This document shows, piece by piece, positions 3,732-5,991 of a DNA stretch of 48,389 nucleotides. Within the stretch, counting starts at the first letter, position 1, and every line of letters begins with the position of its first letter. The notes under the pieces were generated by a model. The model had not been told where the DNA came from, did no database searches, and saw only the letters and a list, made by a program, of their open reading frames with translations. The stretch is taken from NCBI GenBank assembly GCA_002716765.1, contig PBBY01000014.1:1-48389 (forward strand), in the 5' to 3' direction. The stretch is from Candidatus Magasanikiibacteriota bacterium. Lineage in GTDB: Bacteria; Patescibacteriota; Patescibacteriia; Magasanikbacterales; UBA922. The translations under genes were made by a program, and so were the position numbers.

Positions 3732-3821
3732 AAAGCACCTCCATGATGCAAAGTAGAACCCAACACATTGTATTGTGAAGGGGTATTGTAAAGAAGAACG
3801 CCCAATGGCATTCATGCAGAA

Positions 3822-3877: not shown

Positions 3878-4834
3878 TTACTTAACAGCACCAATGAGCG
3901 CGTTATACACATCGTCAACATATGAAGACGATAGACGGTCTAGTGTGTCAGCACTTGATTGATATACCTGCATCAAATTGTCAAAATCACCCATCAAAAA
4001 AGCTGTTTTTTGAAGATATTTATCCATAGACCTAATAGGAAAACCAAGTTTCAAGAGTCTTGGATCATCATGAATAGTTGTTTTTGTATTGCCTACAGAA
4101 TCAACAATAAGCATGCGTTTCGCTTTTTCAAGCAACTCCCCGTACTCTTCTTCAAATGCTCGATACCCTCGTCCCCAGTATACCGGATAATCATAGGAAA
4201 GTTCCTCATTTCCACCAATAACATAAAGTGTGTTACTTAGTGTCTCCCGAGCATCAACACAAGCACGAACCACAGTGTATGTACCCGAAGCATTGTCGAT
4301 AGCGCCAGGACCAATTGAATCATAATGAGTAAACACAATGTATTCAGGATCGATAGTGTTGCCAACTAAAATATTTGCCGAAACATGGTCTACGGGCACC
4401 ACCTCAACAATTCCATTAACTTCCTTTGCCTGGACAAGAGTTGGAATGTCTAAAGCATCAACAGCAACAGAGGGGGCAAAATAAAAATTTGCCTGAGAAA
4501 TAGCACCAGGACAGCGCGGGTTAAAATTAATGTTTGTGTCATCAATATTTTTTTGTGAACTAATCAAAGAACTTAATAAGTGATACTGATTTGGTATTTC
4601 TCCGCTTCGCAATCCTGTTGGTAAACACGGAACTACCGCACCGTCGGCGACCAGAGAAACATGATCATACCGTGGCAATCGTGTATTAAATTCTTGCACC
4701 AAAAAATCAACACCGGAACGTAAAAGAAATGATTCAATCATCTTTCTACCTTGCACCTCAACACCCCCCTGCCTGTGCCCCAAAGCAACAAAATCAGCAA
4801 GCCAAGATGCATATGGAATAGATAATAAAGACAT
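3878..4834 (-). CDS. M28-type zinc peptidase-like protein, 318 aa
   Basis: Signature segments of the M28 aminopeptidase fold occur in order: FTHYDSIGPGAIDNASG (~164-180; first His, bridging Asp in DNASG), GGNEELSYD (~207-215; Glu-Glu pair) and IVDSVGN (~242-248; Asp). The last zinc ligand, normally a His shortly before a DT pair, is not evident: the equivalent stretch reads VYQSSADTLDRL. Catalysis may therefore be altered or lost. No signal peptide is seen, so the protein is probably cytoplasmic. It lies 75 nt downstream of an unknown 267-aa gene and probably shares its mRNA and its structured leader. There is no SD before the ATG. The family assignment is good; activity is uncertain. Confidence 0.8.
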   Translation of the reverse strand: MSLLSIPYASWLADFVALGHRQGGVEVQGRKMIESFLLRSGVDFLVQEFNTRLPRYDHVSLVADGAVVPCLPTGLRSGEIPNQYHLLSSLISSQKNIDDTNINFNPRCPGAISQANFYFAPSVAVDALDIPTLVQAKEVNGIVEVVPVDHVSANILVGNTIDPEYIVFTHYDSIGPGAIDNASGTYTVVRACVDARETLSNTLYVIGGNEELSYDYPVYWGRGYRAFEEEYGELLEKAKRMLIVDSVGNTKTTIHDDPRLLKLGFPIRSMDKYLQKTAFLMGDFDNLMQVYQSSADTLDRLSSSYVDDVYNALIGAVK

Positions 4835-4909
4835 AAAATGTATTAAAATAAATTAGAGGGGCCCTGTAAAAAGACCCCCACACACACCCAACCTCAAAAG
4901 CTTTACATG

Positions 4910-5713
4910 CTACAAAATCATCGAGCGATCTTGATCGTGCATTACCGCAGGAACAGCGTCATACCAGTTAAAACCTTCGGCAGGATAAAACCCTTGCCAA
5001 CGGTGCCAACGCGGCATTGGAACAATCAACGGTGTTAAACCAAATAATGACTGCACTTCCTTAAAGCTAGGTTCAAACACCTCGGCCGTAAATCGATCCA
5101 ACACCTCTCCAGACTCACCACCATGATAATCTTCGAACAATACCCCGTGGGCCACAAACATTGCAAGGTACGCCGTATAATAATCTTTTGCCCGACCAAA
5201 ATCGCCAAACCACTCAGAATAGTCAGCAAAAAAAGCTGCATGACCAGACAAGTGCTGATTTCGCTCGTGCTCATGAAAACGAACCAAAGGTCGACTTCTG
5301 TCTTGACACATAATACTTCCAAGCTGCTGCCCCTGACAACGGGGCATGGTCTGCAGAACACGCTTTTCTGTTTTTGGACCACCCGAACGACCGATACCAC
5401 AAAACACATGATGTTTAATAAGTGATCGCTTATACGAACTAAGAGATACAAATGTATCGTCAATATACGACCCAAAATACGGGACCAGACCACTCGCCTC
5501 AGCCAATCGATAAAAAACTGCATCTTCCATCCGAAACGCAGGAGCGTGACGAAAAAATACACCAAAAGGTTTATTGAACCGAGCAATATCAGGAAGATTT
5601 TTTCCACCAACAGAGAGAAAATAATCGGTCAGAAGGGGTTTTACCTCTTCACGTTGCCTTAGTATTGTAGCCGCCTCATGCGCGCCAATATAAAATGATT
5701 GTGTTTCAAGCAC
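4910..5713 (-). CDS. Unknown protein, 267 aa, partner of the M28-like gene
   Basis: Starts with GTG at 5713; an in-frame TGA lies just upstream, so no longer start is possible. A weak purine-rich SD (AAAGGGA) precedes it. The protein is rich in His, Phe, Tyr and Trp, with clusters such as RFHEHERNQHLSGHAAFF (~145-162) and PMPRWHRWQGFYPAEGF near the C-terminus. It resembles no family I can name. The His-rich centre might bind metal or be catalytic, but this is speculation. No membrane helix or signal peptide is seen. It is the first gene of a two-gene unit preceded by a leader with an attenuator-like structure (5714-5957). Confidence 0.7.
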   Translation of the reverse strand: MLETQSFYIGAHEAATILRQREEVKPLLTDYFLSVGGKNLPDIARFNKPFGVFFRHAPAFRMEDAVFYRLAEASGLVPYFGSYIDDTFVSLSSYKRSLIKHHVFCGIGRSGGPKTEKRVLQTMPRCQGQQLGSIMCQDRSRPLVRFHEHERNQHLSGHAAFFADYSEWFGDFGRAKDYYTAYLAMFVAHGVLFEDYHGGESGEVLDRFTAEVFEPSFKEVQSLFGLTPLIVPMPRWHRWQGFYPAEGFNWYDAVPAVMHDQDRSMIL

Positions 5714-5957
5714 AAGCTTTCCCTTTCACGAACAAAGAATATAAAAGAACAAGATATACCTCCGATTTATTTGGAGGTTTTTACAAACAAAGATATTTGC
5801 AAAAACCTACAAACAAAAACAGTCGAATGTCTCGACTGTTTTGGAAGATACGTAAAGGGGAATCACTCACCAAACACACAACCAAAACAGTTCGTCTTCT
5901 TAATTGAGACGATATTCTTGGTACAAATAATTCGTGATGGTGTTTTATGATTCATAT
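5714..5957 (-). promoter_or_regulatory. Structured mRNA leader with riboswitch- or attenuator-like fold
   Basis: Read on the minus strand from the predicted start (~5957). A two-part closing stem begins within a few bases: GAATCA and CACC (5953-5948, 5942-5939) pair with GGTG and TGATTC (5871-5868, 5865-5860). Nested inside is ACCAA / TTGGT (5922-5918 with 5885-5881), enclosing TCGTCT / AGACGA (5912-5907 with 5897-5892). The strand ACTGTTTTGG (5891-5882), partly held in that arm, is also perfectly complementary to CCAAAACAGT (5844-5835), the left side of an intrinsic terminator. This gives mutually exclusive antiterminator and terminator folds. Downstream are AGGTTTTT / AAAAACCT and ACCTCC / GGAGGT (5778-5758) hairpins before the GTG start. 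All pairings are read directly; ligand and regulation are unknown. I see no known riboswitch class. Confidence 0.65.
5816..5842 (-). terminator. Intrinsic terminator inside the leader
   Basis: Perfect 11-bp stem AAAACAGTCGA / TCGACTGTTTT with loop GACAT on the minus strand, followed by T-rich sequence (TTTTTGTTT counting the end of the stem). It lies between promoter and first gene, so it would abort transcription unless the alternative 10-bp pairing with 5891-5882 forms. Confidence 0.75.
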
Positions 5958-5963
5958 ATAGTT

Positions 5964-5991
5964 ATATTATCACACCAGAACATGTCGTCAA
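5964..5991 (-). promoter_or_regulatory. Promoter of the 267-aa / M28-like unit
   Basis: Minus-strand -35 TTGACG (5991-5986), 16-nt spacer, -10 TAATAT (5969-5964). The predicted start near 5957 falls a few bases before the 5' arm of the leader's closing stem. Confidence 0.65.

Follow-up and report, generated by a model that had tools for sequence, protein, structure and literature searches.

We analyzed the RNA leader that precedes a pair of genes on the minus strand of the window (the whole 48,389-nt stretch of contig PBBY01000014.1) and conclude from its sequence and from energy modeling that it is probably a ribosome-mediated (leader-peptide) transcription attenuator, likely sensing a shortage of charged tRNA. 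Its competing RNA strands, a short ORF, a promoter-like site, and a conserved gene pair behind it are present in the DNA. From this arrangement we infer that the leader ORF is translated and that ribosome stalling is the signal.

All of the hairpins described in the initial annotation were present in the predicted MFE fold, namely, the two-part closing stem at 5953-5860, the nested ACCAAGA/UUUUGGU and UCGUCU/AGACGA arms, and the 11-bp intrinsic terminator at 5842-5816 (Table 1). The RNA folding that it had suggested as a check gave −75.7 kcal/mol for 5963-5714 (z = −6.6), with none of 200 shuffled sequences equally stable; the first 155 nt of the leader RNA gave −40.8 kcal/mol (z = −3.4). The 10-nt strand at 5891-5882 (strand 2) was, as claimed, exactly complementary to the left side of the terminator at 5844-5835 (strand 3, comprising the terminator left arm and two bases upstream of the terminator). 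The computed pairings 1:2, 2:3, and 3:4 are mutually exclusive, and the proposed antiterminator/terminator competition is supported by the 10-nt complement and by energies of −15.4 for 2:3 versus −12.8 for 3:4. What had been overlooked was a leader ORF of 30 codons, which is spanned by the rod-like closing hairpin and lies between the promoter (5991-5964) and the terminator, upstream of p1, the first gene behind the attenuator. Past the terminator, the read-through 5′ UTR (5815-5752) contains two further hairpins, one long and A/T-rich and the other formed by CCTCC/GGAGG, possibly a second layer of control or an mRNA stabilizer.

Table 1. Elements of the leader and the genes behind it, in window coordinates
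Feature	Position	Strand	Basis or remark
Sigma-70-like promoter	5964..5991	minus	TTGACG-16-TAATAT, TG before −10, 9/12 match
Leader ORF, 30 codons, near-leaderless, MNHKTPSRIICTKNIVSIKKTNCFGCVFGE	5863..5955	minus	ATG 5955 to TGA 5863
Rod-like hairpin (1:2)	5860..5953	minus	Folding; start codon to just beyond stop codon
Strand 1 (ACCAAGA) of inner arm, pairs with strand 2	5916..5922	minus	Folding
Strand 2 (ACTGTTTTGG), antiterminator strand, leader ORF codons 22-25	5882..5891	minus	Complement search, folding
Strand 3 (CCAAAACAGT), partner of strand 2 or strand 4	5835..5844	minus	Complement search, folding
Intrinsic terminator (3:4), 11-bp stem, −12.8 kcal/mol	5816..5842	minus	23 nt beyond leader stop codon
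p1, 267-aa protein, first gene behind attenuator	4910..5713	minus	ORF
Intergenic terminator-like hairpin (p1/M28) with weak T tail	4857..4879	minus	Hairpin search
M28-family peptidase-like protein, conserved partner of p1	3878..4834	minus	Pfam match, pair loci

RNA polymerase would start at about 5957 and then transcribe the near-leaderless 30-codon ORF, whose ATG lies 8 nt past the −10 box TAATAT of the promoter-like site; chance alone would give 11.5 such matches in this region, and 10 were found. Two long genes of the window (431 and 273 aa; starts at 3815 and 971, minus strand) have their ATG 6 nt past a sequence resembling a −10 box, which suggests that near-leaderless starts are usual in this genome. 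With this spacing both genes are leaderless, and their nearly identical promoters (27 of 29 bases) mean that they are probably under common control. With its promoter, ORF, and terminator, 5957-5816 is complete as a transcription unit and could also be read as an independent small-RNA or small-peptide gene, with p1 transcribed from elsewhere, and attenuators can release such RNAs in any case. However, no promoter-like site was listed on the minus strand from 5963 to the start of p1, the 2:3 strand would be purposeless in a free-standing gene, and the layout recurs before p1 at other loci, making this reading very improbable.

The effect of a translating ribosome was modeled by excluding from folding all RNA up to 17 nt beyond the P-site, at the point when transcription has just completed strand 3. 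In the absence of a ribosome, strand 2 was held in the rod and the probability of the 2:3 pairing was 0.03. With the A-site at codons 2 to 17 this probability was 0.98 to 1.00, and from codon 18 on strand 2 was masked by the ribosome; footprints of 11 to 20 nt left the picture unchanged, the masking point shifting by one or two codons. For the full leader, the terminator was favored by 14.2 kcal/mol without a ribosome, and the antiterminator was favored by 0.4 to 0.5 kcal/mol with the ribosome stalled at I9, I10, V16, or S17, the Ile-Ile codons 9 and 10 being among the positions where the full-length balance reached −0.5 kcal/mol. It is within the energy model only that ribosome position decides the fold, leaving 2:3 free after an early stall and strand 2 masked after a late one.

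On this model, a ribosome that quickly reached the end of the ORF would cover strand 2 while strands 3 and 4 emerged, the terminator would form, and transcription would stop. With no ribosome loaded, the rod would keep strand 2 and the terminator would form as well. A stall within the first 17 codons would block the rod, and strand 2 would then pair with strand 3 over 10 bp, preventing the terminator and allowing p1, and probably also the M28 peptidase, to be made. Read-through would thus occur only if a ribosome loaded and then stalled, which is the logic of ribosome-mediated attenuation. The likely signal would be that one or more charged tRNAs are in short supply, and an amino-acid scavenger would thus make a peptidase upon starvation.

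The length of the 2:3 complement was compared with that found at other hairpins of the genome. In the window and 12 further stretches (284 kb, both strands) there were 335 terminator-like hairpins, and when a complement was sought in the 125 bases before each, the 10-nt match of the window was the longest. Relative to 500 shuffles, it had a p value of 0.002 for length and 0.002 for energy. A 9-nt candidate in the same genome (L039, 776-748) was rejected as a perfect palindrome rather than a terminator switch.

The p1 and M28 genes were found as a pair at nine Patescibacteria loci in several genome draws: the window, L017 (genome G080), L016 (G564, labelled Candidatus Uhrbacteria), L028 (G593), L029 (G615), L032 (G688), L051 (G219), L052 (G312), and L080 (G978). 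Matches were rare, counting the own genome where it was sampled: p1 was matched in 3 of 86 genomes of the order and 5 of 379 of the phylum, M28 in 2 of 86 of the order and 7 of 380 of the class, and the M28 profile in 3 of 379 genomes of the phylum and 3 of 269 of the class of G312. A search for closer relatives in the orders of G593 and G564 recovered only those two genomes themselves, and no relative close enough to gauge selection on the window ORF was found. The leaders were scored with an automated test that called for a terminator of −10 kcal/mol or lower with a T tail, a 2:3 energy of −9 or lower at p ≤ 0.1, and an ATG ORF of 12 to 45 codons that overlaps strand 2 and has its stop 12 to 45 nt before the terminator. 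Six of the nine pair loci passed, with unrelated leader sequences and a like layout. The failures were L016 (p = 0.14), L052 (no hairpin), and L017, which had no ORF-linked strand 2 at its sole counted terminator; by eye, the tail of a 25-codon ORF in L017 holds interlocked terminators (ATGGTGAGT with ACTCACCAT), which were excluded from the count. None of nine single-gene control loci passed (0/4 with M28 only, among them L030, where only a short stretch was available before the gene, and 0/5 with p1 only, where no counted terminator-like hairpin lay ahead of p1). The distance from leader stop codon to terminator was 23 nt in the window and 25 to 30 nt in seven other ORF-bearing leaders. The initial annotation had made its idea depend on conservation of the leader upstream of homologues, and this held for the layout and failed for the sequence: the window leader had no detectable sequence in common with the eight others (p ≥ 0.06 for all window pairs), and a search for similar leader DNA in 86 genomes returned, apart from the window, five short stray matches. 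On its reverse strand, L029 has three successive leader-peptide-like units before p1 (about 890-1110, 1650-1830, and 2010-2170), the first of which is rich in Ile, Leu, and Val and precedes two small ORFs.

Specificity was assessed on stretches of G000, G615, and G219 (615 kb, 403 terminators). Three terminators passed at p ≤ 0.02 and an identical four at p ≤ 0.05 and p ≤ 0.1, and all four precede the p1 and M28 genes (the window, L029 units B and C, and L051); because the criteria were set after several of these loci had been seen, the scan speaks to specificity and does not count as an independent discovery. The 2:3 pairing was significant at p ≤ 0.02 for 10 of the 403 hairpins, seven of which were dropped for want of a suitable ORF. 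As a positive control, the 2:3 test alone recovered three of six Escherichia coli attenuators at p ≤ 0.05 (thrL, pheL, and ilvL, with hisL, leuL, and trpL not significant) and is therefore conservative. An ordinary terminator that by chance follows a random hairpin and ORF would fit the frequency of promoter-like sites in the region, and the window ORF by itself does not stand out from shuffles (p = 0.167). Such a coincidence is scarcely credible in view of the fold z score, a 10-nt complement unique among 335 hairpins, and the position of every passing terminator ahead of a p1 and M28 operon.

In the nine leaders that were modeled with ribosomes, the antiterminator formed even without a ribosome in six (L029 A, B, and C; L016; L032; and L017), so in these termination would need a ribosome at the ORF end. 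Stalls at codons 9 to 13 lowered the antiterminator in L016. In L051, L029 A, L029 B, and L016, no stall position brought the full-length balance over to the antiterminator, and the model therefore needs co-transcriptional kinetics.

The leader had initially been put forward as a candidate riboswitch or attenuator, and it is the second of these that our results favor. As a metabolite or ion riboswitch, the rod would be an aptamer whose ligand-bound form keeps strand 2, so that the terminator forms, and the ORF would be accidental. The rod is strongly stable, the 2:3/3:4 competition is of the classic kind, and the window ORF has neither significance by itself nor an amino-acid bias, all of which would suit a riboswitch. 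Yet Rfam at the gathering threshold found only three tRNAs in the whole window, the leader had no match at permissive thresholds, and neither the T-box covariance model nor the amino-acid leader families matched it. Moreover, an aptamer class should retain a core, whereas the window leader and the eight others share no sequence, and an ORF with its stop 23 to 30 nt before the terminator recurs among them. We consequently rejected an aptamer as first choice and regard it as unlikely. Outside the leader, Phe_leader was matched weakly at 6292-6201 (24.7 bits versus a cutoff of 55), upstream of the tRNA and over the terminator there. A terminator hairpin of nearly identical sequence (AAAACACTCATATATATTGAGTGTTTT) lies on either side of this tRNA-Arg(GCG) (6235-6203 and 6056-6030).

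The leader peptides were examined for regulatory codons. The ORFs of the nine leaders, which were picked by eye, had a joint p value of 0.002 and single values of 0.07 to 0.19. The window peptide showed no amino-acid bias (Ile/Leu/Val 6/29 versus 6.6 expected, Phe/Trp/Tyr 2/29, and Thr 3/29, p = 0.12). Its sole regulatory-type pair, Ile-Ile at codons 9 and 10, is only a candidate signal, and with no significant codon excess we did not assign the leader to an amino-acid-specific type (thr, his, trp, phe, or ilv). Its signal is thus uncertain. Among the relatives, a regulatory-codon excess was seen in the peptides of L028 (MQIYTSTCTTSTTRSRSR; Thr 6/17, p = 4e-5), L029 unit A (MKPTVRTIVIKLNSTINMVLGIILLQLNLGRLK; Ile/Leu/Val 15/32, p = 0.002), L029 unit C (MQDSILKLNSNINKNSYFYFWFFYGNRLL; Phe/Trp/Tyr 8/28, p = 0.01), and L051. 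The peptide in tandem with that of unit C (MIKTIRTNYFYFWFSPMKRSVVRGVLTKIS) had Phe/Trp/Tyr 6/29 (p = 0.098), and a YFYFWF run is present in two tandem L029 leaders.

An attenuator of identical anatomy could instead sense a stalling antibiotic or a general slowdown of translation rather than one amino acid. In favor of this, a run of regulatory codons is absent from the window peptide, the function of M28 and p1 is unproven, and a paper on HflXr reportedly deals with ribosome-mediated attenuation and an antibiotic-resistance gene (PMC6310831). However, the Thr, aromatic, or branched-chain runs in some relatives' peptides point to tRNA charging, and no resistance or defense family was matched in PADLOC or NCBIfam. 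We consider this kind of sensor quite improbable, and a charged-tRNA shortage remains our preferred signal.

As to the controlled genes, p1 had no convincing family match, Pfam and NCBIfam included, and its profile matched no PDB sequence. Relatives of p1 and M28 were absent from the viral contigs searched, those of p1 from the phages searched, and those of M28 from the plasmids searched. The predicted p1 model (pLDDT 81.6) had a best Foldseek match with an E value of 0.006 and a TM score of 0.30. In VIA, class I LysRS was matched at a Z score of 9.1 (198 residues, 4.2 Å) and BshC at 8.5, barely exceeding the level that this tool rates as common. A HUP or class I synthetase-like fold is possible on the basis of this model, and p1 is possibly an ATP-using amino-acid enzyme, but the Z scores are too modest to build on, and we assign it no function.

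The downstream gene matches Pfam PF04389 (Peptidase_M28; 23.8 bits versus a cutoff of 21.3). All nine aligned homologues match at E ≤ 0.01, and the M28 profile search recovered the aminopeptidase YwaD (E = 1e-10). The earlier remark that this protein lacks an obvious last zinc ligand agrees with the alignment, in which the window protein and that of L017 (3770-4723) have Gln at what we take to be the last M28 metal ligand and the other seven have His; activity may be altered in these two. The M28 homologue of L079 (G997) reads through three TGA codons, and this genome therefore probably reads TGA as sense. M28 is probably included in the p1 transcript, although this is not certain because a terminator-like hairpin (4879-4857) stands between the genes.

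The window leader resembles E. coli thrL, leuL, and ilvL in having a short leader ORF whose tail contains strand 2 and in its 1:2, 2:3, and 3:4 strands. Its distance of 23 nt from stop codon to terminator equals theirs (23 nt each), compared with 45, 49, and 63 nt in trpL, pheL, and hisL. It differs from the thr, leu, and ilv leaders in controlling an unnamed protein and an M28 peptidase rather than biosynthesis, in having no regulatory codon run, and in matching no Rfam leader family. The leaderless trpL of Sinorhizobium meliloti likewise has an ORF that begins at the transcript 5′ end or directly beside it and shows ribosome-dependent attenuation, but it has Trp codons, precedes trpE(G), and belongs to a different phylum with a different target (PMC7298713). 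Attenuators of the classical type, some with missing parts, were predicted by sequence analysis in Actinobacteria, another phylum, where they precede amino-acid biosynthesis genes and tRNA synthetases (PMC1262725). The ilv operon of Staphylococcus aureus has a cis-acting attenuator peptide responsive to branched-chain amino-acid supply, but there the peptide is leucine rich and the operon biosynthetic (PMC5794164).

In open-licence PMC texts, no report of attenuation or a leader peptide in Patescibacteria or the Candidate Phyla Radiation (CPR) was found, which is not proof of absence; with Saccharibacteria as search term, "leader peptide" led to a CPR genome paper where, in the excerpt retrieved, the term means bacteriocin processing. 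A review of Patescibacteria, likewise in excerpt, describes amino-acid synthesis as missing and proteases as many, and mentions riboswitches only as tools (PMC11665869). This suggests that, although the type of switch is known, ribosome-mediated attenuation before p1 and M28 is unreported in Patescibacteria within these texts.

The source is a tiny, probably host-dependent bacterium, and a switch made of RNA, ribosome, and polymerase alone would suit a reduced genome. To our knowledge, gene regulation in ultrasmall bacteria is largely uncharted. We tentatively propose, at somewhat less than an even chance, that Patescibacteria, being without most pathways of amino-acid synthesis, place ribosome-mediated attenuation before a dedicated scavenging operon (p1 and M28), with the layout kept across distant lineages while the leader sequence and sensor codons (Thr-, aromatic-, or branched-chain-rich, or mixed) are swapped freely, sometimes in tandem, so that the peptidase would be tuned in each lineage to whichever amino acid is limiting there. 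If true, such leaders would give a direct readout of the limiting amino acid in an uncultured organism and would give the unnamed p1 family, the partner of a peptidase, a function in the starvation response.
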